A stretch of DNA of 45,101 nucleotides from Candidatus Nanopelagicales bacterium (GTDB lineage Bacteria; Actinomycetota; Actinomycetes; S36-B12). Both the position numbers and the translations under genes were made by a program. The stretch is taken from the NCBI GenBank assembly GCA_030830865.1, contig JAURME010000072.1:1-45101 (forward strand). The letters are read 5' to 3'. Numbering within the stretch: the stretch's first letter is position 1; each line of letters begins with the position of its first letter. Below are positions 20,530 through 45,101 of the stretch, in pieces. Under the pieces are notes generated by a model. That model had not been told where the DNA came from. It saw only the letters and a list, made by a program, of their open reading frames with translations, and searched no databases.

Positions 20530-21323
20530 GCGTCCTCCCTCCTGTCCCCGCAGGTCACCACGATGCCCTGGCGCCCCGTGCGTCCATCCCGCCGGAAGGA
20601 GAACAGGTCGGGTTCTTCGACCGTGCACAGTGCGACGGAGGTGATCTGGGACCCCGGCACCCCGAGGGACTGCAGACGGTGGGTCACGCCCGCGCGGACA
20701 TCGATCCCCGGCTGACCGTCCGGGCACACCACCAGGCTGGCCTCTGTCACCCCCTCAGGTGCCGTGGCCCTCACGTCGTCGACCCGTTCCGGTGACACCG
20801 GGTAGCAGGCGCCGCACACTGCGGGACCGAGCACGACGTGCGCGGGCTGAACACCGAGCCGCGCCAGTGTCGCCACGGTCGCACCCACGACATCGCCGGC
20901 GAGTCCACGCCAGCCGCAGTGCACCGCAGCCACGGTTCGGTCGTCGTCGCCGACGATCGCCAGAGTGAGGCAGTCCGCTCCCATCGCGAGCAGTGCGATG
21001 TCGGCCCGTGCGCAGACGACGGCATCCGCCACCGGGTCGTGCCCGGCACGTGCGCCCTCGAGCACATCATCGTCGACGACAACCACGTCACTCCCGTGGA
21101 CCGCCGACAGCGTGATGAGTGCGGACGCCCCTGACCATCGACGCACACGATCGCGGTTCTCCCCGACGGAACGGGGGTCGTCTCCCACATGGGTCGCCAG
21201 ATTCAATGAGCGGAAGTCCCCCGTGCTGACGCCGCCGGAACGACCGGTGGCCGCCCAGAAGACTGGACGGCCACCGGGAGCGGACGGATCGATCTCGCCC
21301 CAGTGGAGCGGCCGCCATCCCAC
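20526..21323 (-). CDS. pgeF: PgeF/YfiH-type purine nucleoside phosphorylase (laccase-domain protein)
   Basis: 265 aa. The metal-site triad is H76 (SAVHGSD), C118 (GADCLTLAIV) and H135 (AAVHCGWRGLAGD). Family members have been described both as peptidoglycan-editing factors and as purine nucleoside phosphorylases; the sequence cannot decide. Its place right after ftsZ suits the editing role. The start is GTG 21323, sharing one base with the ftsZ TAG (TAGTG). Confidence 0.94.
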   Translation of the reverse strand: MGWRPLHWGEIDPSAPGGRPVFWAATGRSGGVSTGDFRSLNLATHVGDDPRSVGENRDRVRRWSGASALITLSAVHGSDVVVVDDDVLEGARAGHDPVADAVVCARADIALLAMGADCLTLAIVGDDDRTVAAVHCGWRGLAGDVVGATVATLARLGVQPAHVVLGPAVCGACYPVSPERVDDVRATAPEGVTEASLVVCPDGQPGIDVRAGVTHRLQSLGVPGSQITSVALCTVEEPDLFSFRRDGRTGRQGIVVTCGDRREDA

Positions 21324-22438
21324 TACTTCAGGAAGTCGGGGATGTCGAGGTCGTCGTCGGCATCGTCGAACACGATCGTCCGAGATGGACCGGACGGTGA
21401 GACGACCGCCGGCACCTCACCGGTGTCGCCGTCACGGAATCGCCCGGTCGAGCCGCTGACCGCCATGGCGGCCATCTTCTTGGCGGGAGGCTCGCCCCCC
21501 TCGAAGCCGGCTGCGATGACCGTCACCCGCACCTCGTCGCCCAAGGTGTCGTCGATGACCGCACCGAAGATGATGTTGGCGTCCGGGTGGGCAGCATCGG
21601 CCACCAGACGAGCCGCCTCATTGATCTCGAAAAGTCCGAGGTCGCTGCCACCGGAGACGGACAGCAGGACCCCGTGCGCGCCGTCAATCCCGGCTTCGAG
21701 GAGTGGGCTGGAGATCGCCTTCTCGGCCGCCTCGACCGCACGGTCCTCCCCACGGGCGGATCCGATGCCCATGAGGGCGGAGCCGGCGGAGTGCATGACG
21801 CTCTTGACGTCCGCGAAGTCCAGATTGATCAGACCCGGCGTGGTGATGAGGTCGGTGATCCCCGAGACACCCTGCAGCAGGACGTGATCGGCCTGGCGAA
21901 AGGCGTCGATGACGCTGATGTTGCGGTCCGCAAGCGAGAGCAGGCGGTCGTTGGGGATGACGATCAGGGTGTCGACCTCGCTGCGGAGGGCGTCGACCCC
22001 GGCCTCGGCCTGGGATGAGCGCCGCCGGCCCTCGAAGCCGAACGGACGGGTCACCACGCCGATGGTGAGCGCTCCGAGTGAGCGGGCAACGCGGGCGACC
22101 ACGGGTGCACCTCCGGTCCCCGTGCCACCGCCCTCGCCTGCCGTGACGAAGACCATGTCCGCGCCCTTGAGCACCTCCTCGATCTCCTCGAGGTGATCCT
22201 CGGCCGCCTTCTTGCCGACCTCCGGATTGGCGCCGGCACCGAGGCCACGGGTCAGTTCCCGGCCGATGTCGAGCTTCACGTCGGCGTCGCTCATGAGGAG
22301 CGCCTGAGCGTCGGTGTTGATGGCGATGAACTCCACGCCCTTGAGACCGACCTCGATCATCCGGTTGACGGCATTGACGCCACCGCCTCCGATGCCGACG
22401 ACCTTGATCACTGCCAGGTAATTCTGCGGAGCCGCCAC
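21323..22438 (-). CDS. ftsZ: Cell division protein FtsZ
   Basis: 371 aa tubulin homologue that forms the Z-ring. The GTP signature GGGTGTGG is at 103-110, the T7 loop is [11 protein letters not shown] near 205-215, and the C-terminal tail ending [10 protein letters not shown] is the SepF/FtsW docking peptide. GTG 22438 is chosen because GAAGGGA lies upstream and [15 protein letters not shown] is the usual N-terminus. The linker before the tail is short (about 40 aa). The 232-bp upstream gap probably holds its own promoters. Confidence 0.98.
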
Positions 22439-22495
22439 GGCACCCGTCCCTTCACTCGTTGCCGCCGAGCCCTTCCACCCGGCAACGTTCTGGCT

Positions 22496-22513
22496 CTCAA
22501 CCCTCAACCTCAA
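22496..22513 (-). repeat. Three TTGAG repeats in the ftsZ leader
   Basis: On the minus strand TTGAGG, TTGAGGG and TTGAG repeat with a 6-7 bp period, 58-75 nt before the ftsZ start. Next to it, CTCA-TCT-TGAG (22510-22520) is a short inverted repeat. It could be a regulator site or part of an mRNA stem; no known operator is recognised. Confidence 0.4.
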
Positions 22514-22552
22514 GATGAGACTGAGATTTTCTCGGGTCACGAGCCGGGCGGG

Positions 22553-22582
22553 AGGTTAGGCGGTGTGACGGGTGATGCGCAA
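22553..22582 (-). promoter_or_regulatory. Candidate ftsZ promoter
   Basis: On the minus strand TTGCGC (22582-22577), 18 nt, then TAACCT (22558-22553). The hexamers fit an actinobacterial housekeeping promoter moderately well. The start would be near 22545, giving a leader of about 107 nt that includes the TTGAG repeats. It lies in the ftsQ-ftsZ gap, where several actinomycetes have ftsZ promoters. Confidence 0.45.
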
Positions 22583-22670
22583 GGTGAGACAGGTGTTTTT
22601 CCGAAGTAAAGTCTCGACTTCTCCTTGAGGGTGATCGAGGCCACCTCGACCCCGGACCAGCCGCGGACTA

Positions 22671-23447
22671 CTACTGAAGCCTGAAGGTCGTGGGCAGTTC
22701 GGGGGCGGAGACGTCGTACATGTCAGCCTTGCGTTGCAGGAGTGCCTGCAGCACCTCGGCCTTGGTCTCGGAGTCCAGGGCGCTCCCCCACCGCACGACG
22801 TCCCCCGACCGCAGGTGCAGGTCGATGTCATCGCGGGTCGTGGCCGTGACCGACACCACGCGCTTGAGCAGGTCGTCAGGCAGGCCGTTGACGACGGCCG
22901 TCGCAGCCACCAGCGCAGCCCCCTCGGCGCGCACCTTCGGCAGGCGACGCGGCAACTCTCCGGCGACCGGGAAGACGACCCCGTCGGCGTCGATGCCCCA
23001 AGGACCCTGAGCAGCGCCGTCACCCCCGAGCCCGTCCGGAAGCCCCGCCGAGGGATCCAGGACAGCGATCGGATCACGCACCTCGACGGCGAGGACCACC
23101 TCGTTCGGCCAGCCCCGCCGGACCTCGACTCCCGATACCCAGGGCAGCGCGCGGATGCCCTGTTCGGCACCCGCAGCGTCGACACGGGCCAGCGGCCGGC
23201 CGATGGGGATCGCGGCAGCCTGCAGCACCTCCTCCGCCCGGATCCCGTCCGCGCCCACGACCCGTACCGCGCGAACCTCGAGAACCGATGAGAACCACAC
23301 CAGCCAGACAGCGGCCCCGGTGACCAGCAGGACGAGCACGGTGACGAGCAGCCGACGGCGGCGCCGGCGACGCGGGCCGGGATCGGAGAAGTCGACCGGA
23401 CGCGGTCGCGACGCCGACGGGGCGGCCGGGGCGGTGGAGGCGGTCAT
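22671..23447 (-). CDS. ftsQ: Cell division protein FtsQ
   Basis: 258 aa single-pass protein. An Arg-rich cytoplasmic tail (25-32) is followed by a membrane span (about 33-52), a POTRA domain (VRAVRVVGADGIRAEEVLQAA onward) and the FtsQ beta domain. It links the early and late divisome by holding FtsL and its partners. The ATG overlaps the murC stop by 4 bp. Two tandem TAG stops end the gene. Confidence 0.94.
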   Translation of the reverse strand: MTASTAPAAPSASRPRPVDFSDPGPRRRRRRRLLVTVLVLLVTGAAVWLVWFSSVLEVRAVRVVGADGIRAEEVLQAAAIPIGRPLARVDAAGAEQGIRALPWVSGVEVRRGWPNEVVLAVEVRDPIAVLDPSAGLPDGLGGDGAAQGPWGIDADGVVFPVAGELPRRLPKVRAEGAALVAATAVVNGLPDDLLKRVVSVTATTRDDIDLHLRSGDVVRWGSALDSETKAEVLQALLQRKADMYDVSAPELPTTFRLQ

Positions 23448-24877
23448 GGGCGCGGCTCCCGGGCGCGCAGCAGGTCGAGCACCTCGCCACCGATCATGCC
23501 GATGTCACCGGCACCCAGCGTCATGACGATGTCGCCTGCTCGAGCCCGATCGACAAGATCACCGGCCACCGACGACCACGACGGCTCAAACAGCACGCAG
23601 GCGGGATCAAGGGGAACATTCGCGGCCATCGTCTGCCCACTCGCCCCGGGGATGGGTTCCTCGCCGGGGGCGAACACCTCGAGAACGACCACCTCGTCGG
23701 CAAGACCGAGGGCCTCCCCGAACTCCCGCACGAACATCGAGGTCCGGTAATAGTGGTGCGCCTGGAAGGCCACCACGAGTCTCCCGTCCCCGAGGACCTC
23801 CCGTGCCGCCCGCAGTGTGGCGGAGATCTCGGTCGGGTGATGCGCGTAGTCGTCGTACACCCGGACACCAGCAGCCGAGCCCTTGAAGTCGAACCGACGA
23901 CGGGTGCCGCTGAAGGCGGCCAAACCCTCTCGAAGGGCGGCCGCTGGCAGCCCTAGACCCAGTCCGCAGGCGAAGGCGGCAAGCGCGTTGAGGGCGTTGT
24001 GGCGACCGGGGACCTGCAGGGCGATCTCACCCAGACGAACTCCCCCGTGCACGGTGTCGAAGACCCATCCGGACTCCGCCGCACGAGAGTCGCTCAGTCG
24101 ATAGTCGGCGACCCCGGACTCCCCGTAGGTGCGCACGTCGACGCCGGCATCAGCGGCCTCGGCGGCCAGACGCGCTCCCCCCGGGTCGTCGATGCACACG
24201 ACCACGAAGCCCCCACGGTCCCGGATCCCGATGGCGAACTCGCAGAACGCCTGCTCGATGGCCTCGAAGGTGCCCCAATGGTCCAGGTGATCGGGCTCGA
24301 CATTCGTGACGATGGCCGCGAGCGGCGACAGATGGAGGAAGGATCCATCTGACTCATCGGCCTCCACCACGAACAGCTCTCCTGACCCCAGGTGCGCGTT
24401 CGACCCGGACTCGTGCAGTTCGCTGCCGATGGCGAAGGACGGGTCGACTCCGCAGTGCTGGAGGGCAACGGTGAGCATCGACGTCGTCGTCGTCTTGCCA
24501 TGCGTCCCGGACACCGCGACCCCACGGGAGCCCTCCATGACCGACGCGAGGGCGCGGGCGCGACTCCATTCGGGAACACCTCGCTCACGTGCGGCGACCC
24601 GCTCCGGATTGGACGCAGGGATGGCCGTCGAGACGACCAGTGCATCGACTCCGTCGATGAGGCCCGCATCGTGCCCCACACGTGCATCGACGCCGATGGC
24701 CCGGAGTGCCTGGAGACGTCGGGAGTCCTTCGCGTCGGACCCGGACACCACGACGCCCTGAGCGACCATGATCCGGGCGATGCCGGACATCCCGGCACCG
24801 CCTATGCCGACGATGTGGATGCGCAGCGGCCGATCCGTGCCGCCGGAGGACGCACCCGAGTCCTCAACCACCGTCAT
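23444..24877 (-). CDS. murC: UDP-N-acetylmuramate--L-alanine ligase
   Basis: 477 aa Mur ligase. It adds the first amino acid to UDP-MurNAc. Seen: the N-terminal nucleotide fold IHIVGIGGAGMSG (20-32), the ATP loop GTHGKTT (124-130), VEADESDGSFL, NVEPDHLDHWG, and a C-terminal YDDYAHHPTEI segment typical of MurC. It overlaps murG and ftsQ by 4 bp each. Confidence 0.98.
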   Translation of the reverse strand: MTVVEDSGASSGGTDRPLRIHIVGIGGAGMSGIARIMVAQGVVVSGSDAKDSRRLQALRAIGVDARVGHDAGLIDGVDALVVSTAIPASNPERVAARERGVPEWSRARALASVMEGSRGVAVSGTHGKTTTTSMLTVALQHCGVDPSFAIGSELHESGSNAHLGSGELFVVEADESDGSFLHLSPLAAIVTNVEPDHLDHWGTFEAIEQAFCEFAIGIRDRGGFVVVCIDDPGGARLAAEAADAGVDVRTYGESGVADYRLSDSRAAESGWVFDTVHGGVRLGEIALQVPGRHNALNALAAFACGLGLGLPAAALREGLAAFSGTRRRFDFKGSAAGVRVYDDYAHHPTEISATLRAAREVLGDGRLVVAFQAHHYYRTSMFVREFGEALGLADEVVVLEVFAPGEEPIPGASGQTMAANVPLDPACVLFEPSWSSVAGDLVDRARAGDIVMTLGAGDIGMIGGEVLDLLRAREPRP

Positions 24878-25941
24878 CCTCCTGCCGCAGCCGCCTCCAC
24901 GGCCTGGGCGAGACGCACGTCGGCGTCCCGCTCCCCGAGCCGTGAGGCTGCCGCGCCCATGCTCGACAGCCTGTCCTCATCGTGCAGCAAGGACGCCGCC
25001 GTTTCGACGAGCCACTCCGCAGTGAGATCCGCGTCCTCGATGAGCATCCCTCCGCCCGCACGGACGACCGGGCCTGCATTGAGCCGCTGCTCACCGTTGC
25101 CGATCGGCAGGGGGACGTACAACGCCGGAAGGCCGACAGCGGTCAGTTCCGCACACGTCATGGCCCCGGCTCGCGTGACCGCCAGGTCGGCCGCCGCGTA
25201 CGCGAGGTCCATCCTGTCGATGAACGCCACCGGGACGTAGCCGGGTGCCGGCTCCGGCGCCTCGTTGCGGATCCCGTAGGCATGCAGGACCGTGATGCCC
25301 TGCTTGGTGAGCTCGGGCAGCGCCTCGCCCACCGTGGTGTTGAGGCGCTGGGCACCCTGCGACCCGCCGAAGACCAGCAGCACCGGACCGTGCTCGGGAA
25401 GCCCGAAGAAGCGGCGTGCCTCCTCGCGTCGGGCCGTTCGGTCCAATGACGCTATGGCCTGCCGCAGAGGAAGCCCCATCGGCATCGCCCCGGGGAGCGC
25501 ATCCGGCACGCTGGCATAGACGTGCGAGGTGAAACGGGCCCCCAGTCGGTTGGCCCAGCCGGCGTGCGCGTTGGCCTCGTGGATGACCAGGGGGGTTCGC
25601 GTACGCCGGGCCGCGAGGTAACCAGGCACGGCGGCGTAGCCGCCGAATCCGACGACGACGTCGATCTGACGGCCCCGCACCAGGTCGGTCGCCTGACGGA
25701 CGGCGCGCCGCACGCGGGCCGGCAGGGCGACGAGGTCGCGTCCCGGGCGCCGCGGCATCGGGACACTGGGGACGCTCACCAGTGGGTAGCCGCGGGCCGG
25801 CACGAGGTCCCGCTCCAGGCCACGTTCACCGCCGAGGACGATCACCTCGGCGTCCGGGTCACGTCGCCGCAGAGCGTCGGCGAGGTTCAGTGCCGGCTCG
25901 ATATGCCCCGCGGTGCCGCCCGCCGCCAGGAGGACACGCAC
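24874..25941 (-). CDS. murG: Lipid II glycosyltransferase MurG
   Basis: 355 aa GT28 enzyme. It transfers GlcNAc from UDP-GlcNAc to lipid I at the inner membrane face. GGTAGHIEP near 8-16 and GGSQGAQRLN in the middle are the glycine-rich signatures, and RAGAMTCAELTAVGLPALYVPLP is the UDP-GlcNAc site. GTG 25941 lies 1 nt after the ftsW stop; it begins exactly at the family N-terminus (VRVLLAAGG). There is no strong ribosome site, so translation is likely coupled to ftsW. Confidence 0.97.
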   Translation of the reverse strand: MRVLLAAGGTAGHIEPALNLADALRRRDPDAEVIVLGGERGLERDLVPARGYPLVSVPSVPMPRRPGRDLVALPARVRRAVRQATDLVRGRQIDVVVGFGGYAAVPGYLAARRTRTPLVIHEANAHAGWANRLGARFTSHVYASVPDALPGAMPMGLPLRQAIASLDRTARREEARRFFGLPEHGPVLLVFGGSQGAQRLNTTVGEALPELTKQGITVLHAYGIRNEAPEPAPGYVPVAFIDRMDLAYAAADLAVTRAGAMTCAELTAVGLPALYVPLPIGNGEQRLNAGPVVRAGGGMLIEDADLTAEWLVETAASLLHDEDRLSSMGAAASRLGERDADVRLAQAVEAAAAGG

Positions 25942-25942
25942 G

Positions 25943-27157
25943 TCAACGACGCCGCAGTGACTGCGCGGTGCTGCGCCTGCGGAGAGCGCGACGCGTGTCG
26001 GGCTCGGCCTTGGCGAAGGCCATGAGCATGCCGAGCGCCGCCAGGGTGGGCACCAAGGACGACCCGCCGTACGACACGAGCGGAAGCGGCACGCCGGTGA
26101 TGGGGAGCAGCCCCAGCACCCCGCCGACGTTGATGACAGCCTGCACGACGATCCAGCATCCGACTCCTGCCGACGCGAGCCGCACGAACGGATCGCGGGT
26201 GTTGCGGGACTGTCGGAAGATGGCGAAGGCGAGAACACCGAACAGGGCGAGGACCGAGAGGGTGCCGAACAGCCCGAGTTCCTCCCCGATGACCGGGAAG
26301 ATGAAGTCCGTGTGCGCCTCGGGCAGTGAGCCCCACTTCTCTCGACTCGCGCCGAGCCCGACGCCCCAGAATCCGCCCGTCCCGAGGGCGTACTGACCCT
26401 GGGAGACCTGCCAGCCGAAGCCGAGCCGGTCCGCACCCGGGTCGAGCCACGAGGTGAATCGCTGCATGCGGTAGGGAGCCGCGAGCGTGATGACGACCAG
26501 ACCGATGGCGAACGCTCCGGCCAGCACACCGAACAGGCGCAATGGGGCGCCAGCGGCGAACAGCATGCCCACCGTGATCGCCCCGAGCATGAGCATGTTC
26601 CCGAAGTCGCCCTCGAGCAGGACCATCAGCATCATGGCGCCCGCGACGGGCAGGAGCGGGACGAGGAAGGTCTGCCAGTTCTCGACACGACGACCGTGGC
26701 GGGAGAGCATGGTCGCCCCCCAGACGACGAGCGCGATCTTCGCGAACTCCGACGGCTGAAGGCGGAACGGCCCGAAGATCTCGATCCAGTTGCGCTGGCC
26801 GGCCACCTCGACACCGATGACGAGCACGGCGACGAGAAGCAGGAAGGCCAGACCGAGCAGCGGCCAGGCGAAGCCGCGCCAGAACTGCACCGACGTCCGG
26901 GATGCGAAGACCATGCCGATGACGCCGAGAACGGCGAAAAGCGCCTGCCGTTGCGCGAGCGTGTACGGCGATCCATGGACCCGGAAGCTCTCGATGCTCG
27001 AGGCCGACAGCACCATGATCAGCCCGAGGACCAGCAGGAGGAGCGTCGTGCCCAGCAGCAGGTAGTAGGTGCTGAGCGGATGGTTCAGCAGCGCCCGCAG
27101 ATGACCCGGCGATGTGGCGCGTGCCGTGGGCTCGGCCTCGGCCTCCGCGCGGCTCAT
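25943..27157 (-). CDS. ftsW: Septal peptidoglycan polymerase FtsW
   Basis: 404 aa SEDS protein with about ten membrane spans. It polymerises lipid II with FtsI. The catalytic Asp is probably D284 in EAHTDFIFPVIGEELG; GPFRLQPSEFAK (129-140) and VPLPLVSYGGSS are family motifs. The tail has RRALRRRSTAQSLRRR-like basic residues. The ATG overlaps the murD stop by 4 bp. Confidence 0.97.
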   Translation of the reverse strand: MSRAEAEAEPTARATSPGHLRALLNHPLSTYYLLLGTTLLLLVLGLIMVLSASSIESFRVHGSPYTLAQRQALFAVLGVIGMVFASRTSVQFWRGFAWPLLGLAFLLLVAVLVIGVEVAGQRNWIEIFGPFRLQPSEFAKIALVVWGATMLSRHGRRVENWQTFLVPLLPVAGAMMLMVLLEGDFGNMLMLGAITVGMLFAAGAPLRLFGVLAGAFAIGLVVITLAAPYRMQRFTSWLDPGADRLGFGWQVSQGQYALGTGGFWGVGLGASREKWGSLPEAHTDFIFPVIGEELGLFGTLSVLALFGVLAFAIFRQSRNTRDPFVRLASAGVGCWIVVQAVINVGGVLGLLPITGVPLPLVSYGGSSLVPTLAALGMLMAFAKAEPDTRRALRRRSTAQSLRRR

Positions 27158-28623
27158 GCGGTGTCCCCCTGCCGGCCCGGACCCTCGAACCCCGGGAGAG
27201 CTGCAACGGCCTCGGCGAACATCCGTCCGCGCTCGGTGTAGTCGCGGAACATGTCCCAGGACGCACAGCCAGGCGCCAGGAGCACCGTGTCCCCCGGCAG
27301 CGCGAGCGCGCGCGCCGCAGACACCACGTCGACCATGGCTCCAGTGTCTGCGCTGGCCACCTCGATGACCGGTACATCAGGCGCGTGTCGCCGCAGGGCC
27401 CCTGCGATGACCTCACGGTCCACACCGAGCAGGACGACCCCGCGGAGCCGGTCGACGCTCGCTGCCACCAGGTCGTCGAACTCCTGGCCCTTGGCCATGC
27501 CGCCGGCGATCCACACGATGGGGTCGTAGGACGACAGGGAGGTCTGCGCGGCATGCGCGTTCGTCGCCTTGGAGTCGTCGACGAACGAGATGCCGTCGAC
27601 CGTGCCGACGTCGGCGATCCGATGGGCGGCCGGGACGAAGGCCCGAAGTCCGTCGCGCACCGCCGTCGGCGGGACGCCGAAGGCGCGGGCGAGAGCGGCG
27701 GCCGCAAGGGCGTTCGCCACGTTGTGGGGGGCGAACGGATGCACATCGCGCACCGAGCCGAGTTCCTGCGCGCGCTCGGTGCGATCATCGATGAACGCCC
27801 GGTCGACGAGCAGGTCCTCCACGACGCCCACCATGCTGACATCGGGCACTCCGAGGGTGAAGCCGATGGCGCGGCAGCCCTCGATGACGTCCGCCTCCTC
27901 GACCATCCGGAGGGTCCGCTCGTCTGAGACGTTGTAGACCGCCGCTTCCTGCGTGCGCTCGTAGACGCGGGCCTTCGCCGCAACATAGGCATCGAAGGAG
28001 CCGAAGTGATCGATGTGGTCGTCCGCCACGTTCAGGCAGACGGAGGCGACAGGACTCATCGTGTGCACGAAGGGCAGTTGCGGTGCGCCGACCTCGACGG
28101 CGATGACATCCATCTCGTCGTGCATGACGATGTCCACGAGGGACGTTCCGATGTTGCCTGCTGCACAGGTGCGGTAGCCCGCCGACCGCAGGATGGACTC
28201 CAGCATGAGTGTCGCGGTGGTCTTGCCGTTGGTGCCGGTCACGCACAGCCACGCCGCAGCCGTGTCCGGATCACGCAGCCGCCACGCCAACTCCAGCTCA
28301 CCCCAGACGGGGATGCCGGCCCCCAGCGCCTCGACGATCAGGGGACTGTGCGGCGGCAGACCCGGTGACACCACGAGGATGTCGGTTCCGTCCGGCACAC
28401 CGCCCGTGTGACCGAGTTCGACCCGCACCTCGAGGGCACGCAGGATCCCCGCCCGCTCCCGCTGACGTTCACCGTCACCGCCGTCGACCACGGTGACCCG
28501 GGCCCCGAGTTGCATCAGGGCGTCAGCACAGGCGTAGCCGGCCACGCCGATGCCCGCCACCGTCACCGACCACTGCGTCCAGTCCGAGTTCCGGTGCAGG
28601 CCCTCCACTCCCGGTCGGTTCAC
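27154..28623 (-). CDS. murD: UDP-N-acetylmuramoylalanine--D-glutamate ligase
   Basis: 489 aa Mur ligase that adds D-glutamate. The ATP loop is GTNGKTT (129-135). VADDHIDHFG, DDSKATNAHAA and the C-terminal LAPGCASWDMFRDYTERG are MurD marks. The segment usually read as E-x-S-S-F-Q-L is here EVGAPQL (177-183), so the Ser-Ser-Phe is replaced. GTG 28623 is chosen because it overlaps the mraY stop by 4 bp; it leaves a 20-residue N-terminal extension before the nucleotide fold. Confidence 0.96.
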   Translation of the reverse strand: MNRPGVEGLHRNSDWTQWSVTVAGIGVAGYACADALMQLGARVTVVDGGDGERQRERAGILRALEVRVELGHTGGVPDGTDILVVSPGLPPHSPLIVEALGAGIPVWGELELAWRLRDPDTAAAWLCVTGTNGKTTATLMLESILRSAGYRTCAAGNIGTSLVDIVMHDEMDVIAVEVGAPQLPFVHTMSPVASVCLNVADDHIDHFGSFDAYVAAKARVYERTQEAAVYNVSDERTLRMVEEADVIEGCRAIGFTLGVPDVSMVGVVEDLLVDRAFIDDRTERAQELGSVRDVHPFAPHNVANALAAAALARAFGVPPTAVRDGLRAFVPAAHRIADVGTVDGISFVDDSKATNAHAAQTSLSSYDPIVWIAGGMAKGQEFDDLVAASVDRLRGVVLLGVDREVIAGALRRHAPDVPVIEVASADTGAMVDVVSAARALALPGDTVLLAPGCASWDMFRDYTERGRMFAEAVAALPGFEGPGRQGDTA

Positions 28624-29687
28624 GAACGGACCCACTCCGCATAGAACAGAGCCAGTCCCGCGCCGATGAACAGGCCCTGGATGATCCAGAACCGGACGAC
28701 GATCTGGATCTCCGGCCATCCGAGCATCTCGAAGTGGTGGTGCAGTGGCGCCATCCGGAAGACGCGGCGCCCCGTCAGTTTGAACGATCCGACCTGCAGG
28801 ATCACGGACAGCGAGATGATGAGGAACAGGCCCGCGATGAAGGGCAGGAGCAGCTCGGTCCGAGTGAAGATCGCCAGGCCTGCGATACCGCCGCCGAGCG
28901 CGAGAGAACCGGTGTCGCCCATGAAGATCCGTGCGGGTGACGTGTTCCACCAGAGGAATCCGAACGTGGCGCCGGCACCGGCTGCGGCCACGATCGCCAG
29001 GTCAAGCGGGCTGGCCGTGGTGTAGCAGATCGAGGTCTGCTCGAAGAAGCAGCTCTGTCCGTACTGCCAGATGCTGATGAGGACGTAGGCGAGGAAGGAC
29101 GCGAACGCCGCACCCGTCGCCAGGCCATCGAGGCCGTCGGTGAGGTTCACCCCATTGGTCGTCGCTGTGATGAGGAACCAGATCCACAGGACGAACAGGG
29201 CCATCGGGAGCACCAGCGGCGTGTCCCGCAGGAACGACACCGCCATGCTCGCAGGAGTCTCACCCTGCTCGTTCGGGAAGTTGACGGACAGCACGGCGAA
29301 GGACAGCGCCACCGCGGCCTGGCCGATGAGCTTGGTCCGGGCTCGCAGGCCCGTACTGCGCTGCTTGAAGATCTTCAGGTAGTCGTCGGCCACGCCAACG
29401 AGTCCGAGGCCCACCATTAGGTACAGGATCAGCAGGCCGGACGGGGTGGGTGGGCGCCACGTGATGAGGTGGGTGATCAGGTAGCCGGCGAGGACACCGA
29501 CGATGATCGCAACGCCACCCATCGACGGTGTGCCGCGCTTGGCCTCGTGGTCGGGATAGGCCTCGTCGTCCGTCGAGACACGGATGGCCTGGGCGTACCC
29601 ATGACGGGCGAGCAGGGCGATGAGCAGGGGCGTGCCGACAAGCGCGACGATTGCGGCGATACCGAGGGAGATGACGACGAGCCTCAT
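28620..29687 (-). CDS. mraY: Phospho-N-acetylmuramoyl-pentapeptide transferase
   Basis: 355 aa with about ten membrane spans. It makes lipid I from UDP-MurNAc-pentapeptide and undecaprenyl phosphate. The catalytic aspartates are seen as D101-D102 (VADDYLKIFKQRS), NLTDGLDGLATG (181-192) and FMGDTGSLALGG (255-266), and the APLHHHFE loop is present. GGAGGG precedes the ATG, which overlaps the murF stop by 4 bp. Confidence 0.98.
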   Translation of the reverse strand: MRLVVISLGIAAIVALVGTPLLIALLARHGYAQAIRVSTDDEAYPDHEAKRGTPSMGGVAIIVGVLAGYLITHLITWRPPTPSGLLILYLMVGLGLVGVADDYLKIFKQRSTGLRARTKLIGQAAVALSFAVLSVNFPNEQGETPASMAVSFLRDTPLVLPMALFVLWIWFLITATTNGVNLTDGLDGLATGAAFASFLAYVLISIWQYGQSCFFEQTSICYTTASPLDLAIVAAAGAGATFGFLWWNTSPARIFMGDTGSLALGGGIAGLAIFTRTELLLPFIAGLFLIISLSVILQVGSFKLTGRRVFRMAPLHHHFEMLGWPEIQIVVRFWIIQGLFIGAGLALFYAEWVRS

Positions 29688-31096
29688 ATCTCGCCCTCCC
29701 CCAGTAGTGCGTCGGCGATGCGTTCCAGGCCGATCGCACGCGATGCCTTGACGAGCACGACGTCACCCGGTCGGACCTGCTGCCTCATGAGGTCGATCGC
29801 CTCATCGACATCGGCGACGTGGATGGACTCCTCACCCCAGGCGCCCTCGTTGCTGGCCCCGAGGTGCATCACCCTGGTGCCCTGTCCAACGCAGACCAGT
29901 CGCGAGATGTCGAGCCGGACCGCGAGGCGGCCGATGGCGTCGTGCTCCTCGACACTGGCGTCGCCCAGTTCACGCATCTCCCCGAGCACCGCCCACGTCC
30001 GACGCCCCGCGGCCATCGCGGCGAGGGACTTCAGCGCAGCGCGCACTGACTCGGGATTGGCGTTGTAGGCATCGTTGACCACGACGACCCCGGCCGGTGA
30101 CTCCCGGATCTCCATGCGCCACGGGCTGTCACTGTCGGCCGATCGCAGAGCATCGGCGATGACCTCGATGCTCAGGCCGCACGCGCGCCCGACGGCGGCG
30201 GCGGCCAGCGCATTGGACACGAAGTGCTCACCGCTGAGGCGCAGCGTCACCGGCGCGGACTCCTGCACCTCCTCGTCAGTCAGCGTGAACGAGGGCCTGG
30301 CGCGATCGTCGACACGGACGTCGGTGGCGCGGATGCGCGCGATGGACATCTCGCCGAACAGGATGACGGCCGCGGGCGTCACGTCGCGCATGGCAGTCAC
30401 CAGCGGGTCATCGGCGTTCAGGATCGCGATCCCTTCGGCGTTCAGGGCACGGACGAGCTCGGACTTCGCCCGGGCTATGCCCTCGCGCGATCCCACCACT
30501 CCCAGGTGCGCGGACCCGACGTTCAGGACGACGCCCACATCGGGGCGGGCGAGGCCGGCCAGGTAGGCGATGTGGCCCTCCCCCCGCATACCCATCTCGA
30601 GCACGAGGAAACGCGACTCCGCATCGGCGCGCAGGATCGTCAGCGGAAGCCCGACCTCGGTGTTGTACGAGCCACGGGCGCTGACGGTGGGGCCCTGGGC
30701 TCCGAGAACCCGGGCGATGAGGTCCTTGGTGCTGGTCTTGCCGCTGGAGCCGGTGACTCCGATGACCGTGCAGGTCAGGCGCTCCTGCCGGTACCAGGAG
30801 GCCAGACGGCCGAGAGCGATGACGGGATCATCCACCACGACGCAGGGCAGGTCCACGCCGTCAGTGGTCGACAGCGGTCGAGCGGAAAGGACCAGCGCTG
30901 CGCCGTCCGCCACGGCCTGTGCCGCATGGTCATGCCCGTCAGACCGCTCACCGCGGATCGCGACGAAGAGGGCGCCGGGCGTCACCTCACGCGAGTCGGC
31001 GACGACGATCACGATGGAGTGGGCGTCCGCGGCCACAGGTCCGCACAGGGAGCCGCCGATGGCATCGGCGATCTCCCGAGGTGTCAGGGGGATCAC
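29684..31096 (-). CDS. murF: UDP-MurNAc-tripeptide--D-alanyl-D-alanine ligase
   Basis: 470 aa Mur ligase that completes the pentapeptide with D-Ala-D-Ala. The ATP loop is GSSGKTSTKD (116-125); NTEVGLPLTIL, NVGSAHLG and NDAYNANPESVRAAL are MurF-specific. The start is GTG 31096, overlapping the murE stop by 4 bp (GTGA). Confidence 0.97.
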   Translation of the reverse strand: MIPLTPREIADAIGGSLCGPVAADAHSIVIVVADSREVTPGALFVAIRGERSDGHDHAAQAVADGAALVLSARPLSTTDGVDLPCVVVDDPVIALGRLASWYRQERLTCTVIGVTGSSGKTSTKDLIARVLGAQGPTVSARGSYNTEVGLPLTILRADAESRFLVLEMGMRGEGHIAYLAGLARPDVGVVLNVGSAHLGVVGSREGIARAKSELVRALNAEGIAILNADDPLVTAMRDVTPAAVILFGEMSIARIRATDVRVDDRARPSFTLTDEEVQESAPVTLRLSGEHFVSNALAAAAVGRACGLSIEVIADALRSADSDSPWRMEIRESPAGVVVVNDAYNANPESVRAALKSLAAMAAGRRTWAVLGEMRELGDASVEEHDAIGRLAVRLDISRLVCVGQGTRVMHLGASNEGAWGEESIHVADVDEAIDLMRQQVRPGDVVLVKASRAIGLERIADALLGEGEI

Positions 31097-32643
31097 TCGA
31101 CGGTTCCGATCCGGCGAGCGTCATCCAGTGCATCGGCGAGGACCACGGCATCGTCGAACGGGGTGACCACGCCGGCGACCTCCTGACCCTGCTCGTGCCC
31201 CTTGCCGAGCACCACGATGATGTCACCGGGCTCGGCGACATCCACCGCAACGCTAATGGCTGCCGCCCGGTTTCCGATGTCATGCAGGCCGGTGTCCCCT
31301 CCCCGGGCAGCGCGGGCACCTGCCATGACCGATGCGCGGATGGCAGCCGGATCCTCGGAGCGAGGGTTGTCATCCGTCACGATGACGACCTCGGCGCCCT
31401 GCGCCGCCGCAGCGCCCATCAGTGGTCGCTTCTGCGCGTCCCGGTCGCCACCGGCCCCCAGGACCGCGATGATCCGCGCGGGCGCGGAGCCGCGAAGCGC
31501 GTCGAGCGCCCGCCCGATCGCGTCCGGTGTGTGCGCGTAGTCCACGATGCCGATGATGTCCGGGCCCCCCGCGTCATCGACTCGACGGCCAACGGTCTGC
31601 ATTCGCCCCGGCACCTGCACCGACCCGAGCCCACGAGCAGCCGCCGCGGACTCGACGCCGCAGCTCCGCAGAACCGCAAACGCGCAGAGTGCGTTCGCGA
31701 CGTTGTAGTCACCGGGGAGGGGCACGTGAACGATGGTCTCCTCCTGCTGCGGGCCGGCCACGCGCATGGCGCTGCCACCTGGGACGGATCGGATGTCGCG
31801 GGCGCGCCAGTCCGCCTTCGGATCGTGCACCGACCAGGTGTACACCGGGATGGTCGCCTCCCGAGAAAGGCGTCGGCCGTATTCGTCGTCGACTCCCACG
31901 ACACCGATCGCGGCGTGCTGCGGCGTGAAGAGGCGGGCCTTCGCCCGGTAATAGGTCTCCATGTCGCCGTGATAGTCCAGATGGTCCTGGGAGAGCTGCG
32001 TGAACGCGGCGACGTCATATCGGAAGCCGTCGACCCGATGCTCCTCCAGAGCGATGGAGCTCACCTCCATCACGGCGAACTGGACTCGCTCGTCACGCAT
32101 CACGGCGAGAATCGCTTGGAGGTCCGTTGCCTCCGGTGTCGTCCTGACTCCGGAGAGATCGCGCCCCGCGATGTGCACCCCCACCGTGCCGATGGCTCCC
32201 GTCCTCAGCCCGGCCGCCTGGAATCCCGACTCGACCATGGCCGTGATCGTCGTCTTGCCGTTCGTCCCGGTGATGCCGACGACCTGCAGGTCGCGTGCGG
32301 GCCAGCCGTGGACTGCTGCCGCAACAGGGCCGGCGATGACCCGCGGCTCGGGGACGACGAGCACCGGCACCTCAAGCGCGGCACACAGGCGACCGCCCTC
32401 CTCGTCGGTGACCACGGCGACCGCTCCCTGCCGCACTGCCTCGATGGCGTGCAGAGCGCCATGCGTCACCCGACCGGGCAGGGCGAGGTAGAGGTCACCC
32501 GGGCGGACATCGCGGGAGTCGAGGGTCGCACCGGAGACCCTGAGGTCAGCAACCGCAGAGGATGCGGGCCGCAGTTCGGGGACGGCGGCGCACACGGAGG
32601 CGAGGGCCACCGGACGGGGTTCAGGCCTCAGCGAGTCGCCCAT
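31093..32643 (-). CDS. murE: UDP-MurNAc-tripeptide synthetase, meso-diaminopimelate type
   Basis: 516 aa Mur ligase that adds the third residue of the stem peptide. The amino-acid selector is D425-N426-P427-R428 (DDNPRSEDP), the meso-DAP motif. The ATP loop is GTNGKTT (126-132), and the carbamylated lysine is probably K235 (YRAKARLF). The usual EVSSHAL is EVSSIAL (193-199), with Ile for His. The ATG is 6 nt after the ftsI stop. Confidence 0.97.
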   Translation of the reverse strand: MGDSLRPEPRPVALASVCAAVPELRPASSAVADLRVSGATLDSRDVRPGDLYLALPGRVTHGALHAIEAVRQGAVAVVTDEEGGRLCAALEVPVLVVPEPRVIAGPVAAAVHGWPARDLQVVGITGTNGKTTITAMVESGFQAAGLRTGAIGTVGVHIAGRDLSGVRTTPEATDLQAILAVMRDERVQFAVMEVSSIALEEHRVDGFRYDVAAFTQLSQDHLDYHGDMETYYRAKARLFTPQHAAIGVVGVDDEYGRRLSREATIPVYTWSVHDPKADWRARDIRSVPGGSAMRVAGPQQEETIVHVPLPGDYNVANALCAFAVLRSCGVESAAAARGLGSVQVPGRMQTVGRRVDDAGGPDIIGIVDYAHTPDAIGRALDALRGSAPARIIAVLGAGGDRDAQKRPLMGAAAAQGAEVVIVTDDNPRSEDPAAIRASVMAGARAARGGDTGLHDIGNRAAAISVAVDVAEPGDIIVVLGKGHEQGQEVAGVVTPFDDAVVLADALDDARRIGTVE

Positions 32644-32649
32644 CGTGGA

Positions 32650-34467
32650 TCACCCGCCGAGGGGAAGCCGGGAGAATCTGGCGCCGGTCGGCGGGATCTG
32701 GCGAGCCTGAAGGGCGTACGTCATGACCCGCTTGAACACCGGGCCACCGAGCTGGCCGCCGTAGCGACCGACCCGCGGGTTGTTGAGGAACACTGCCACG
32801 ACGAGTTCGGGAGCATCCACGGGAGCCATGCCGATGAAGGAGGCGATGACACCGCGGTAGCAGCCGCAGTCGGCGTTGAAGGCCTGAGCGGTGCCGGTCT
32901 TGCCGCCCACGCGGTACCCCGGGATCGCCGCGTTCGGGGCGGTGCCACCGGGACCGACCACGGCCTCAAGCATGGCCCGGACCTGACTCGCGGTCTCCGG
33001 TGAGACGACGCGGGTCGGGTCCTCCACCTCGGGGGTCGAGGCAGTGCCGTCAGCGGCGATGAGCTCGTCGACGAGGCGAGGCTGCAGGCGCACGCCATCA
33101 TTGGCGATGGTGGCGAACACGCTGGCCGCCTGGACGGCATTGACGCTGAAGCCCTGGCCGAAGGCGATCGTCGGCATCGACGTGGGTGACCAGTCGTCGT
33201 AGGCAGGCACGTATCCACTGGCCTCACCCGGGAAGCCCAGACCGGCCTTCTGCCCGATGCCGAACTTCTTGAGGTACTTGGAGAGCTTGCGGCCGCCGAT
33301 CCGCTCAGCGGCCAGGATCGTGCCGATGTTGCTGGACTTCGCCATGACCCCGGAGAGGGTCAGATTGAGCGTGCCGTGGGGGGTGTGGTCGTTGAAGTCC
33401 TCACCGCCGCGCATGAGGACCGGCGGGATCTTGAACCACGAGTAGGGCGTGGCCTTGCCCTCGTTGACGACGGCGGCCAGGGTCATGAGCTTCGCCGTCG
33501 AACCGGGCTCGAAGACCTCGGTGAGGGCTCGATTCCCGAGGTCCCTGCTGTCGGCCGATCCCGGGTCGTTGGGATCGAAGGTCGGCGCAGTGGCAAGAGC
33601 GAGGATGTCCCCGGTCTGCGGGTCCATGACGACGACGGTACCGCTGTCGGCGCGTGAACTGCTGACCTGCTGCGCGATCGTCTCCTGTGCGATGAACTGG
33701 ATGTCCCGATCGATCGTGAGCCTGATCGTGGTGCCGGGCTGAGCTTCGGTGCGTGACTGCGCCCCCGTCGGAATGGCGCCCCCGCTCGGGCCCCGCTCGT
33801 AGCGCATCTCTCCCGGAGTGCCGGTCAGGGTGTCCTCATAGGCGTACTCCAGGCCACCGAGACCGGTGCCCTCGGCCCCCACGAATCCCACGATGTTCGC
33901 GGCGAGGTCTCCCGCCGGGTAGATGCGTCGAGAAGTCTCCTCACTGAAGATTCCCGGTAGGCGCAGGTCGGAGATGCGGCCCCAGGTCTCAGGAGTCAGC
34001 TCCTTCGCGAGGTAGACAAAGCGCCGGTCCCCCGTCAGTCGCGCGGCGAGGACATCGGCATCGACCTCGAGGATGGTGGCGAGCTGCTCAGCCTCACCGG
34101 AAGGATCGGTCACCATCGTCTGGTCCGCCGTCAGGTTCCGCGCCTCCACGGTCACGGCCAGGGGTTCGCCCGCATTGTCGAGGATCGCTCCGCGCTGTGC
34201 CGGAAGCTCCAGGACACGCATGCGCTGGCCGAGGGCCTCCGATGCGAGGGTCTCCCCCTTCACCGCCTGCAGTTCGACCAGCCGACCGGCGAAGACGGTC
34301 AAGACCAGGCCCGTCACGACGAGCAGGATCGTTCCCCGCTTGCGGGGATCGGCCATGCGCAGGCCTCGCACCGGCACACGCCGACCGTAGCCGCCACCGC
34401 CTCCTGAGGGTGGTCGCGGCGACGGGCGGCGTGGCGCGGAGGACGATCTGGTCGCGGTGGGGCTCAC
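32650..34467 (-). CDS. ftsI: Septal class-B penicillin-binding protein FtsI
   Basis: 605 aa transpeptidase that cross-links septal peptidoglycan with FtsW. A Pro/Gly-rich cytoplasmic tail (to about 44) is followed by a membrane span (46-62), the PBP dimerisation domain and the transpeptidase domain. Active-site motifs are S323-T-A-K326, S378-S-N and K523-T-G. A CGC pair (C534, C536) sits just after KTG in an extracytoplasmic loop. The start is GTG 34467, overlapping the ftsL-like stop by 4 bp. Confidence 0.97.
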   Translation of the reverse strand: MSPTATRSSSAPRRPSPRPPSGGGGGYGRRVPVRGLRMADPRKRGTILLVVTGLVLTVFAGRLVELQAVKGETLASEALGQRMRVLELPAQRGAILDNAGEPLAVTVEARNLTADQTMVTDPSGEAEQLATILEVDADVLAARLTGDRRFVYLAKELTPETWGRISDLRLPGIFSEETSRRIYPAGDLAANIVGFVGAEGTGLGGLEYAYEDTLTGTPGEMRYERGPSGGAIPTGAQSRTEAQPGTTIRLTIDRDIQFIAQETIAQQVSSSRADSGTVVVMDPQTGDILALATAPTFDPNDPGSADSRDLGNRALTEVFEPGSTAKLMTLAAVVNEGKATPYSWFKIPPVLMRGGEDFNDHTPHGTLNLTLSGVMAKSSNIGTILAAERIGGRKLSKYLKKFGIGQKAGLGFPGEASGYVPAYDDWSPTSMPTIAFGQGFSVNAVQAASVFATIANDGVRLQPRLVDELIAADGTASTPEVEDPTRVVSPETASQVRAMLEAVVGPGGTAPNAAIPGYRVGGKTGTAQAFNADCGCYRGVIASFIGMAPVDAPELVVAVFLNNPRVGRYGGQLGGPVFKRVMTYALQARQIPPTGARFSRLPLGG

Positions 34468-41761: not shown

Positions 41762-41897
41762 ACGCACCCGGCGCGTGACCACATCGTTGCCGACCTGAGA
41801 CCTTCTCCGCGGAACGGTCGTCAGCGTGCAACGCGTCCCATCCGCAGAGGACACTGCCAGTGACAGCCACGTCACGGTCCGGACGTCTGGAGGAGCG

Positions 41898-42908
41898 ATG
41901 AACGCCACCCGCACACCAAGTCACCGCACTGTGGTCGCCGCCGCGACCGTCATGGCCCTGGCCGGGCTACTGGCCGGCTGCGGCTCGTCCGGTGTTGCGT
42001 ACGACACCTCTGCCTCCGACGCGATGGCGCCCATGGCCGAGGAGGCCATGCCGGACATGATGGTCGACGGGGAGATGGCGGCGGAGGCGCCCCGAATGGA
42101 CTCCGCGTCCGGCACCTCCGCGTCGATAGACGCGGAGCGTCAGGTGATCCGCACCGCCTACATCAGCATGCGCGTCGACAGCGTGCCGGCCTCGGCAGCC
42201 GACGTCCGCGGGATCGCGGGCGGGTTCGGCGGCATCGTGACGGACGAGAGCATGACCGCCGACGGATCGAGCGACGCGGACGTCGCCAACAGCTACGCGA
42301 CGGTGACCGTGCAGGTGCCAGCCGACCGCCTCGAGGACTTCCTTTCCGCCATCGCCGACCTCGGCACAGTCGACTCACGGACCGTGAGCGCCCAGGATGT
42401 CACGCTGCAGGTGGTCGACCTCGATGCTCGAATCGATGCCCTGACGACGAGCATCACGCGCCTCGAGCAGCTGCTTGCGCGCGCTGAGACCGTCGAGGAC
42501 CTGCTCGCGATCGAGACCGAGCTCTCGCGCCGTCAGGCGGATCTCGATGCCCTCCAGGCACAGCGGACCTGGCTCGGCGACCAGGTGGCCATGTCCACCG
42601 TCACCGTCTCGCTCAGCCCCACGACCTACGTGACGAGCAGCGGAGCACCCGGATTCCTCTCCGGCCTGGAGACTGGCTGGTCAGCACTCGTGGCCGCTGC
42701 AGGTGCGCTCATCACGCTCGCCGGAGTCCTGCTGCCGTTCCTGGTGCTGCTCGGGATCATCGCGGTTCCGGTGACGTTCCTCATCGTGCGACTGGCTCGA
42801 CGCGGACGTAGGGTCCAAGGATGGGAGTCAGGCGCGACCGGCGACGTCGCGGCGGACCCGGTCGCCGACGCCGCCTCCTCATCGCCGGGGTCGCCGCCCT
42901 CGCGCTGA
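41898..42908 (+). CDS. DUF4349 lipoprotein with C-terminal membrane segment
   Basis: 336 aa. A signal peptide ends in lipobox L25-A26-G27... C28. A Met/Asp/Glu-rich stretch follows (43-67, seven Met). The DUF4349 domain begins near 80 (RQVIRTAYISMRVDSV), with a predicted coiled coil at 175-228, then TVTVSLSP and one or two membrane spans at 263-300. The function is unknown. ATG 41898 has a strong TGGAGGAG site. The 3' end overlaps the hydrolase-ABC gene by 88 bp in another frame. Confidence 0.88.
   Translation: MNATRTPSHRTVVAAATVMALAGLLAGCGSSGVAYDTSASDAMAPMAEEAMPDMMVDGEMAAEAPRMDSASGTSASIDAERQVIRTAYISMRVDSVPASAADVRGIAGGFGGIVTDESMTADGSSDADVANSYATVTVQVPADRLEDFLSAIADLGTVDSRTVSAQDVTLQVVDLDARIDALTTSITRLEQLLARAETVEDLLAIETELSRRQADLDALQAQRTWLGDQVAMSTVTVSLSPTTYVTSSGAPGFLSGLETGWSALVAAAGALITLAGVLLPFLVLLGIIAVPVTFLIVRLARRGRRVQGWESGATGDVAADPVADAASSSPGSPPSR
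42809..42814 (+). promoter_or_regulatory. -10 element of a probable leaderless promoter inside the DUF4349 gene
   Basis: TAGGGT, then 6 nt (CCAAGG), then the ATG at 42821. It lies within codons of the DUF4349 C-terminal tail. AGGG or AAGG could also serve as a weak ribosome site, so both readings remain open. Confidence 0.5.
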
Positions 42909-45101
42909 TCATCGGCGGCGTGGCCGCTGTGGTGGTGACCCGACCCTCCCCCATCACGCCCGAGGCACTGATACTCCCCGGCGCCGCCACGTCAGCGCAG
43001 GACCCGGCCCCGGTGAAGCTCGAGGCGGACCTGTACCTCCCGCGCGACGCGTCTTCCTCGCGTCCGGCTGTGCTCATCGCCCATGGCTTCGGCGGCAGCA
43101 AGGCCTCGGTCACCGCTGAGGCCCTCTCCCTCGCCGATGCGGGCTTCGTCGTCCTGACCTATTCCGCGCGCGGCTTCGGGGGGTCATCGGGACAGATCTC
43201 CGTGAACTCCCCGGACTTCGAGATCGCCGACGCCTCGGCGCTCCTGGACTTCCTCGCCACCCGGCCGGAGGTCCGACAGGACGCACCCGGGGACCCCCGC
43301 GTCGGGATCGCGGGCGGCTCGTACGGGGGCGCCCTGGCACTGCTCGCCGCCGGATACGACGATCGCGTCGACGCCGTCGCCGCCGACATCACCTGGAACA
43401 GCCTGCAGGAGTCGCTGTTCGGGCAGGCCGGTGAGCCGCAGGTCGGCGACATCGGCGTGTACAAGAGCCTGTGGACCGGCCTGTTCTTCTCATCCGGTCT
43501 GACCAGCCGCGACGGGTCGGTGACCGAGTGCGGTCGGTTCACCCCGGCCTGGTGTCGGGCCTACGTCGATGCCGCCGTCGACAGCGTCGTGACCGCCGAA
43601 TCGGCCGAACTCATGCGCCGGTCCTCCCCCGTGAGCATCACCGATCGCATCACCGTCCCGACCCTCCTCGGCGGCGGCCAGGCGGACTCCCTGTTCCCCC
43701 TCGGGCAGGCGAACGCCACCGCAGAGCAGATCCGGTCGGCGCACCCGGACGTCCCGGTGAAGGTCGTCTGGCACGCGGGAGGCCACGACGGCAGCCTCAC
43801 GTCGGCGGAGGCGGTGGGCGAGCAGGTGAGGCAGCTGACCGCGGACTGGTTCACCACGCACCTCGACGACGGCCCCCCGGTATCGGATGACTTCCTGTTC
43901 TCGGTCGTCGCAGGGTCCGCGCTGAGCGATCGGGCCGCCGGTACCGACGAGGTGCGGGCTGCGGGGGCCTACCCGGGACTCCAGGGAGCCGAGCAGAGCA
44001 CCGTCACGGTGCAGGGGCCGGCGCAGGAGATCCTCGCCCCGGCCGGCGGCGTCCCGGCCGCGATCTCCTCGCTGCCCGGCCTCGGCGGGCTGGGCGGACT
44101 CGCCGGCCAGGTGGCCGGCGGCCTCGGGACGATGCTCGGAGCAGACGGGCAGAGCGCGGTCTTCACCTCCGAGCCGTTGTCCGCCCCACTGAGCATCGTC
44201 GGATCCCCGCAGGTCCGGGTGACGGTCTCCAGCGATCGACCGGTCGAACAGGCCACCCTCTTCGCGGCCGTCCGCATCGTCGACGACCAGGGTCGCTCAC
44301 AGCTGCCGGCCGGTCTCGTGGCCCCGGTCATGATCCGGGATCTCGCCGGCGATCTCGTGACCCGCGACATCACGCTTCCGGCCATCGTGGTCGACGTGCC
44401 GGCGGGAGCGCGTCTGGCCGTCACACTCTCCACCACCGATCAGGCTTACCGCCTGCCACCGGGACCGGCCGTCTACAGCGTGGCCCTCGCCGGTGACTCC
44501 CTTACTGTCCCGCTGACGCCGGCGACGCCGATCGATACCGGGTTCCCTTCCTGGGGATGGCTGGTGATCGCCGCCGGCCTGACGCTCGGCCTCGTCATTC
44601 TGGTCCGCCTTGCACGCCCACGGGTCCCGCGCCGAGCCACCACCGTCGCGGAGTACACCCCGAGCGCCGCGCCTGTCCGCGTCACCGGGCTGGTGAAGGA
44701 GTTTCCCGGTGGCGTGCGCGCTGTGGACGACGTCTCGTTCGCCGTTCCCGACGGCGCGGTGCTCGGGCTCCTGGGCCCGAATGGGGCGGGCAAGAGCACG
44801 GCCCTGAGGATGCTCATGGGTCTCACCCGACCCACCGCGGGCACCCTCGAGCTTTTCGGCGATCCCGTGCGGCCCGGGACCCCGGCGCTCGCGAGGGTCG
44901 GCTGCTTCATCGAGGGACCGGGGCTGCTCCCCCACCTCACGGGCCGTCAGAACCTGGACTTGTTCTGGCGCGCCTCCGGCCGCAGCGGCGATCCGCGCCA
45001 TGCGGAGGTGCTCGACATCGCCGGCCTCGGCCCGGCCATCGATCGCCGGGTGCGCACCTACAGCCAGGGCATGAAGCAACGGCTCGGCATTGCGCAGGCC
45101 A
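42821..45101 (+). CDS. Membrane-anchored serine hydrolase fused to an ABC transporter ATPase (3' end missing)
   Basis: 760 codons are visible with no stop; the gene runs past the right edge. An Arg-rich inside tail precedes span 1 (about 19-41). Residues 65-350 are an alpha/beta hydrolase of the X-Pro dipeptidyl-peptidase/CocE type with triad S167 (GGSYGG), D289 and H322 (HAGGHDG). Residues 355-565 look like the family's C-terminal jelly-roll domain. Span 2 is at about 577-597. The ABC domain starts at 617: Walker A GPNGAGKST (652-660), IEGPGLLPHLTG in place of a usual Q-loop (BcrA-like), and signature YSQGMKQR (747-754). The hydrolase would face outside and the ATPase inside. Confidence 0.85.
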   Translation, partial: MGVRRDRRRRGGPGRRRRLLIAGVAALALIIGGVAAVVVTRPSPITPEALILPGAATSAQDPAPVKLEADLYLPRDASSSRPAVLIAHGFGGSKASVTAEALSLADAGFVVLTYSARGFGGSSGQISVNSPDFEIADASALLDFLATRPEVRQDAPGDPRVGIAGGSYGGALALLAAGYDDRVDAVAADITWNSLQESLFGQAGEPQVGDIGVYKSLWTGLFFSSGLTSRDGSVTECGRFTPAWCRAYVDAAVDSVVTAESAELMRRSSPVSITDRITVPTLLGGGQADSLFPLGQANATAEQIRSAHPDVPVKVVWHAGGHDGSLTSAEAVGEQVRQLTADWFTTHLDDGPPVSDDFLFSVVAGSALSDRAAGTDEVRAAGAYPGLQGAEQSTVTVQGPAQEILAPAGGVPAAISSLPGLGGLGGLAGQVAGGLGTMLGADGQSAVFTSEPLSAPLSIVGSPQVRVTVSSDRPVEQATLFAAVRIVDDQGRSQLPAGLVAPVMIRDLAGDLVTRDITLPAIVVDVPAGARLAVTLSTTDQAYRLPPGPAVYSVALAGDSLTVPLTPATPIDTGFPSWGWLVIAAGLTLGLVILVRLARPRVPRRATTVAEYTPSAAPVRVTGLVKEFPGGVRAVDDVSFAVPDGAVLGLLGPNGAGKSTALRMLMGLTRPTAGTLELFGDPVRPGTPALARVGCFIEGPGLLPHLTGRQNLDLFWRASGRSGDPRHAEVLDIAGLGPAIDRRVRTYSQGMKQRLGIAQA

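Follow-up and report, generated by a model that had tools for sequence, protein, structure and literature searches.

The window analysed here, a 45,101-nucleotide stretch of DNA from a Candidatus Nanopelagicales bacterium, ends inside an open frame that appears to place a hydrolase and an ABC ATPase on the same polypeptide. Two questions follow: whether such a fusion is real, and what a protein of this kind could do.

A gene cut by a contig end

The window corresponds to C32, one of 176 contigs in the genome, and this contig stops inside the gene. As claimed in an earlier note on the same DNA, the frame at 42821-45100 (plus strand) is free of stops over 760 codons and carries its domains on one polypeptide; it then runs off the window end. 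A gene broken off at the end of a contig might be an artefact of assembly or annotation, in which two genes were wrongly joined. However, the last 141 bases of C32 match the end of C121, another contig of the same genome, without a difference, as expected of an assembly overlap. Once the two contigs are joined, the fusion protein is 871 aa long, with its stop at C121:55265 on the minus strand, so that extension of the contig, a check proposed earlier, recovered the ATPase end and an ABC-2 permease gene next to it. The join is independently backed by a relative within Nanopelagicales (locus L024), in which a DUF4349 gene, the fusion and the permease lie on one unbroken contig in the same order as in the source genome; the proteins encoded 3' of the permease are also shared between L024 and the C121 side (those starting MTTFREY..., PAQLGRFFxDFExG..., MPLSEHEQRLLEQME... 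and a DinB-like protein). Moreover, on the closed plasmid NZ_LR134452.1 of Tsukamurella tyrosinosolvens, the fusion is a single annotated CDS (WP_232066410.1, 'alpha/beta fold hydrolase') whose gene has a 4-base overlap with the next one, annotated 'ABC transporter permease'. For practical purposes, an artefact is refuted.

A frameshift between residues 560 and 620 is ruled out by GC3, which stays steady at 0.82-0.91 over the hydrolase/ATPase junction, and by relatives with 51-74% identity, whose frame is open there. These relatives are fused in one frame, which also rules out a loss of the fusion in close relatives. A chance origin of the fused frame is excluded, because the same domain order is found in about 50 genomes of the family and in 132 frames overall.

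Table 1. Positions in the window of the fusion gene, its parts and its overlapping neighbour
Feature	Coordinates	Strand	Evidence or remark
DUF4349 gene, lipoprotein-like start, 88-base overlap with fusion start	41826..42908	+	Pfam 4.3e-66
Hydrolase-ABC ATPase fusion gene	42821..45101	+	3' part beyond window, completed on C121
First hydrophobic segment after Arg-rich N-tail, residues 19-40, signal peptide or anchor	42875..42940	+	97/100 relatives; L024 TM helix 2-29
Alpha/beta hydrolase domain, Peptidase_S15/CocE type, residues 65-346	43013..43858	+	Pfam; fold match to 8YZN, CocE
Nucleophile Ser167 in GGSYGG	43319..43321	+	Ser in 100/100 distinct fused proteins
Cys237 and Cys245 (CGRFTPAWC), probable disulphide	43529..43555	+	both Cys in 100/100
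Catalytic acid Asp289	43685..43687	+	100/100
Catalytic base His322	43784..43786	+	100/100
PepX_C jelly-roll, Pfam part residues 442-548	44144..44464	+	Pfam; all-beta 438-578 in L024 model
Second membrane span, residues 578-599	44552..44617	+	hydrophobic in 100/100; L024 helix 584-603
ABC ATPase, N-terminal part; Walker A 652-659, signature 748-752	44675..45101	+	Pfam; motif alignment
Glu698 in place of Q-loop Gln (E-loop)	44912..44914	+	E in 100/100; aligns with ABCA7 Gln

The hydrolase half

In the window protein, Pfam finds in this order Peptidase_S15 (E 1.6e-18; 67.8 bits, cut-off 23), PepX_C (6.4e-13; 49.5 bits, cut-off 22.5) and ABC_tran (5.2e-21), all above their gathering scores. Among NCBIfam models, the first half matches CocE_NonD; with TIGR00976, the window protein scores 63.8, slightly below the cut-off of 66.3, and a Streptomyces relative (L046) scores 108.1, above it. 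The catalytic triad is intact, as had been read from the sequence (codons TCG at 43319, GAC at 43685 and CAC at 43784).

Because the window protein is cut by the contig end, the relative L024 (857 aa) was modelled in its place, using AlphaFold2 and 47 related sequences. The model (mean pLDDT 87.3) consists of a helix (residues 2-29), an alpha/beta hydrolase, an all-beta domain (438-578), a second helix (584-603) and the ATPase (618-849). Lipase PaL (8YZN) ranks first for the hydrolase half in a sequence search of the PDB, and it is also the closest fold to the outer part of the model (VIA Z 32.8, 455 residues, rmsd 3.0), followed by cocaine esterase (CocE 1L7Q: Z 26.2, 457 residues, rmsd 3.0) and X-Pro peptidases. 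The matches to 8YZN, CocE and SACOL2612 extend across both the hydrolase and the jelly-roll domains. Of the earlier description as 'peptidase/esterase', the assignment to hydrolases is upheld by Pfam, whereas 'peptidase' is less well backed than 'esterase/lipase-like', PaL being nearest; the fold neighbours point weakly to a substrate that is an ester or lipid-like, rather than a peptide.

With the CocE/NonD and S15 enzymes (cocaine esterase, alpha-amino acid ester hydrolase, X-Pro dipeptidyl aminopeptidase) and PaL, the fusion shares a Ser-Asp-His alpha/beta hydrolase followed by a jelly-roll. It differs from them in that its hydrolase would be tethered to the membrane outside the cell and continues into a span and an ABC ATPase; it also has an invariant Cys pair, and identity is only about 16-25%.

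The ATPase half and its permease

The earlier note had also pointed to Walker A and signature motifs, which are indeed present as GPNGAGKS and SQGMK; the Walker B, D-loop and H-loop of the source protein are encoded on C121. Conservation was counted over 100 distinct fused sequences, in all of which the Walker A Lys, the signature SxGM, the Walker B Asp and Glu, the D-loop Asp and the H-loop His are invariant. Since the triad and the Cys pair are invariant too, both halves appear to be kept active.

The ATPase had been called BcrA-like, and this finds support in ABC_tran and in drug and lantibiotic exporter models: the best NCBIfam models are DrrA and a lantibiotic-protection ATPase, and FtsE models score lower. 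The domain nevertheless does not reach the curated threshold of any of the NCBIfam ATPase models listed (best 94.6-179.7 bits versus about 310). By these scores it is related to the DrrA and lantibiotic-protection subfamilies and a member of neither. In the PDB fold search, the inner part of the L024 model is closest to TM0544 and NosF. The Glu at the Q-loop position is what we take to be the 'E-loop' of LanF-type lantibiotic-immunity ATPases; a literature search on the E-loop returned no useful paper. The same Glu is found in free-standing relatives (L137, L138, L140, L142), free-standing ATPase-permease pairs among them, so that it is a trait of the exporter branch rather than of the fusion. 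Known exporters of the BcrA/LanF/DrrA type share with the fusion the type of ATPase domain, this Glu and an ABC-2 permease in the operon, but their ATPases are free, cytoplasmic proteins of about 300 aa with no outside enzyme. In another genome (G194, L143:4084-5886), a related ATPase is fused to its own ABC-2 permease in one 600-aa frame, and there Asp replaces the Q-loop Gln.

A permease gene had been expected to follow, and it does: the source genome encodes a 290-aa membrane protein of ABC-2 type (PF12679, E 4.2e-11), with an ATGA overlap with the 3' end of the fusion gene. In all 124 loci that can be tested, the gene directly 3' of the fusion encodes an ABC-2 permease (PF12679/PF12730), and the two genes usually overlap by 4 bases; the other 8 of the 132 fused frames are cut by contig ends. 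The permease is thus an obligate partner; it matches PF12679/PF12730 only, with no FtsX-type match.

Other neighbours are not conserved between lineages, and they therefore indicate no pathway. Across loci, no precursor or biosynthetic gene turns up repeatedly next to the fusion, and a third conserved partner was rejected, as only the permease recurs. TerC, considered as a partner, lies beside the fusion in Pseudonocardiales, where it is divergent and a local feature. The DUF4349 gene is confined to the nearest relatives, with few similar loci, and is therefore not an obligate part. In a streamlined genome of 1.34 Mb (G105, L125:2208-7330), genes for DUF305 and copper monooxygenase-like proteins neighbour the fusion and its permease; the fusion is missing from other genomes of that genus. 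Elsewhere in the source genome, a second DNA polymerase III alpha-like gene (1202 aa; L003:949-5804 on C121) overlaps a DinB-like polymerase gene, a pair that by eye looks like a mutagenic repair pair; another DnaE is encoded in the window at 9069-12605. The window also contains a cell division and wall (dcw) cluster that includes genes for FtsZ, MurG, Mur ligase and PBP (21323-34467, minus strand).

Membrane topology

The order originally proposed, namely N-tail inside, span, hydrolase, span and ATPase, is borne out overall by the two hydrophobic segments and by the L024 model; the exception is the first 'span', which may be a cleavable signal peptide. Net charge before the N-terminal hydrophobic segment averages +3.8 over the 100 distinct fused proteins, and an AxA motif follows the segment in 67 of them, although this motif is merely suggestive because the surrounding sequence is Ala-rich. 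Were the signal cleaved, the second span alone would still keep the hydrolase outside. The linker from this span to the first ATPase strand is nearly constant, with a median of 17 residues.

A hydrolase outside and an ATPase inside are strongly indicated by the N-terminal segment (97/100), the second span (100/100), the invariant Cys pair and a free-standing relative that bears CWB2 domains. The Cys pair, in chains with few other Cys (about half of the fusion proteins have just 3 in total), fits a disulphide formed outside the cell. The free-standing relative (L141:3912-6773, genome G414) ends in three CWB2 cell-wall-binding domains, a second way to hold the same enzyme outside the cell.

Distribution and origin

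The distribution was searched within Actinomycetota. In the bacterium's own family, about 50 of 85 genomes carry the fusion as a single open frame, and it is also found elsewhere in the class and in further classes of Actinomycetota, with carriers in Streptomyces, Lentzea, Amycolatopsis, Blastococcus, Actinomadura and Rhodococcus. The 132 fused frames, some of them redundant, range from Nanopelagicales to Streptomyces, Amycolatopsis and Tsukamurella, which agrees with the earlier belief that similar fusions occur in other actinobacteria. Many free-living species have it, mostly as a single copy per genome, and streamlined genomes of 1.3-1.4 Mb have it as well.

Each half also exists alone in other Actinomycetota, as free-standing hydrolases (L123, L124, L139, L141, L144) and as free-standing ATPase-permease pairs (L137, L140, L142); among the loci inspected, none had the hydrolase and the ATPase as adjacent separate genes. 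At L140 and L142, long frames suggested other N-terminal domains in place of the hydrolase; these proved to be non-coding read-through, Arg-rich and domain-free, and the real genes are free-standing ATPases. In a tree of the hydrolases, the fused sequences group in a single clade that excludes the five free-standing hydrolases sampled (support 0.999); the ATPase tree gives no resolution here (support 0.09). The simplest reading of these sequences would be one old fusion followed by mostly vertical descent.

Possible functions

Our preferred reading, to which we give somewhat less than an even chance, is that of an ABC-2 exporter whose own outside esterase/amidase acts on what the pump expels. 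For stoichiometry, direction, a substrate common to both halves, chemistry and coupling, we infer the following scheme. The fusion and the following permease would form one ABC-2 exporter, probably with two fusion chains and two permeases. The ATPase half would work in the cytoplasm, and the same chain would cross the membrane just before it, holding the CocE/S15-type esterase/amidase and the jelly-roll next to the pore on the outer side of the membrane. The pump may expel an amphipathic compound that contains an ester or amide (an antibiotic, a lipid or a peptide), or lift it from the outer leaflet, and the tethered enzyme would cut it at once, either disarming a foreign compound or maturing an own one. 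Processing of a substrate at the mouth of an exporter, one idea of the earlier note, is plausible; for its other idea, a cleavage that signals through the ATPase, the analysis gave no positive support.

Three other scenarios are considered. The two halves may be independent, with the span a mere anchor for a surface esterase and the two activities directed at unrelated compounds. No shared substrate is known, and relatives of the hydrolase work without a transporter, as this scenario would predict; yet the halves are never split in 132 frames from several classes of Actinomycetota, the fused hydrolases form their own clade against the five free ones sampled, and a segment that served only as an anchor would be expected to disappear or be exchanged more frequently. 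We regard it as rather unlikely. The ATPase and permease might instead transport nothing and serve to open or close the enzyme outside, in the way FtsEX controls cell-wall hydrolases. The covalent link through a short, nearly constant linker would suit such gating, as would the constant retention of both activities together, but the permease is of the ABC-2 exporter type and not of the FtsX type, the ATPase resembles those of drug and lantibiotic exporters more than FtsE, and no hydrolase accompanies the closest free-standing ATPase-permease pairs; an ATP-gated hydrolase is thus quite improbable.

A narrower form of the exporter model would see the system as dedicated to maturing an own secreted product, for example by removal of a leader or an acyl group on export, and not to defence. 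It has the analogy of peptidase-containing exporters and the mostly single copy in many free-living species on its side. Against it, neither a precursor nor a biosynthetic gene recurs nearby, and the fusion is present in streamlined genomes too, so that we hold it unlikely. The patchy presence of the fusion does not discriminate between defence and own-product export.

Comparable systems and significance

The nisin-resistance operons with NSR and NsrFP (PMC4828448), and the Corynebacterium operons (PMC8003753), come to mind, as NSR and NsrFP likewise combine a membrane-associated outside peptidase with an ABC transporter against envelope-active peptides. However, NSR belongs to the S41 peptidases and stands as a protein of its own, and its transporter is of the BceAB/FtsX type, whereas the fusion pairs an S15/CocE hydrolase with an ABC-2 permease; the likeness is one of idea, not of descent. 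In Myxococcus, an ABC-2 membrane protein is fused to an M1 aminopeptidase (Q1D520, TC 3.A.1.145; PMC3924187), again an uncharacterised fusion of an exporter part with a hydrolytic enzyme, but there the permease is fused, not the ATPase, and a zinc peptidase at the C-terminus provides the enzyme. FtsEX is similar in that an ABC ATPase is thought to act on an outside hydrolase, and different in its non-covalent association, its FtsX-type permease and its other hydrolases. That the fusion belongs to AreABCD, an exporter of S. coelicolor (SCO3956-3959; PMC3924187), was rejected: AreABCD has two tandem ATPase-permease pairs, versus the fusion and one permease in the Streptomyces loci inspected.

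A literature search for S15 peptidases with ABC transporters found no paper on the fusion (most subscription journals lay outside the search), and a labyrinthopeptin or class III lanthipeptide lead yielded nothing. The fusion thus seems unstudied, similar ideas being known with other enzymes and partners. It is possible, although we think it rather doubtful, that it represents an undescribed class of ABC exporters in Actinomycetota, in which the ATPase chain carries an extracytoplasmic enzyme and the expulsion and hydrolysis of the same envelope-active compound are coupled.

In any case, a conserved and common two-gene module is present in Streptomyces, Amycolatopsis, Rhodococcus and aquatic actinobacteria, and its exporter part is easily missed, because RefSeq names one annotated record after the hydrolase half only. 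If both halves share one compound, it would be a one-chain device to 'expel and cut'. Such a device, if confirmed, would be relevant to envelope-antibiotic resistance or to the export of own products, and would offer a clean system for asking whether ATP hydrolysis inside the cell steers an enzyme outside it.
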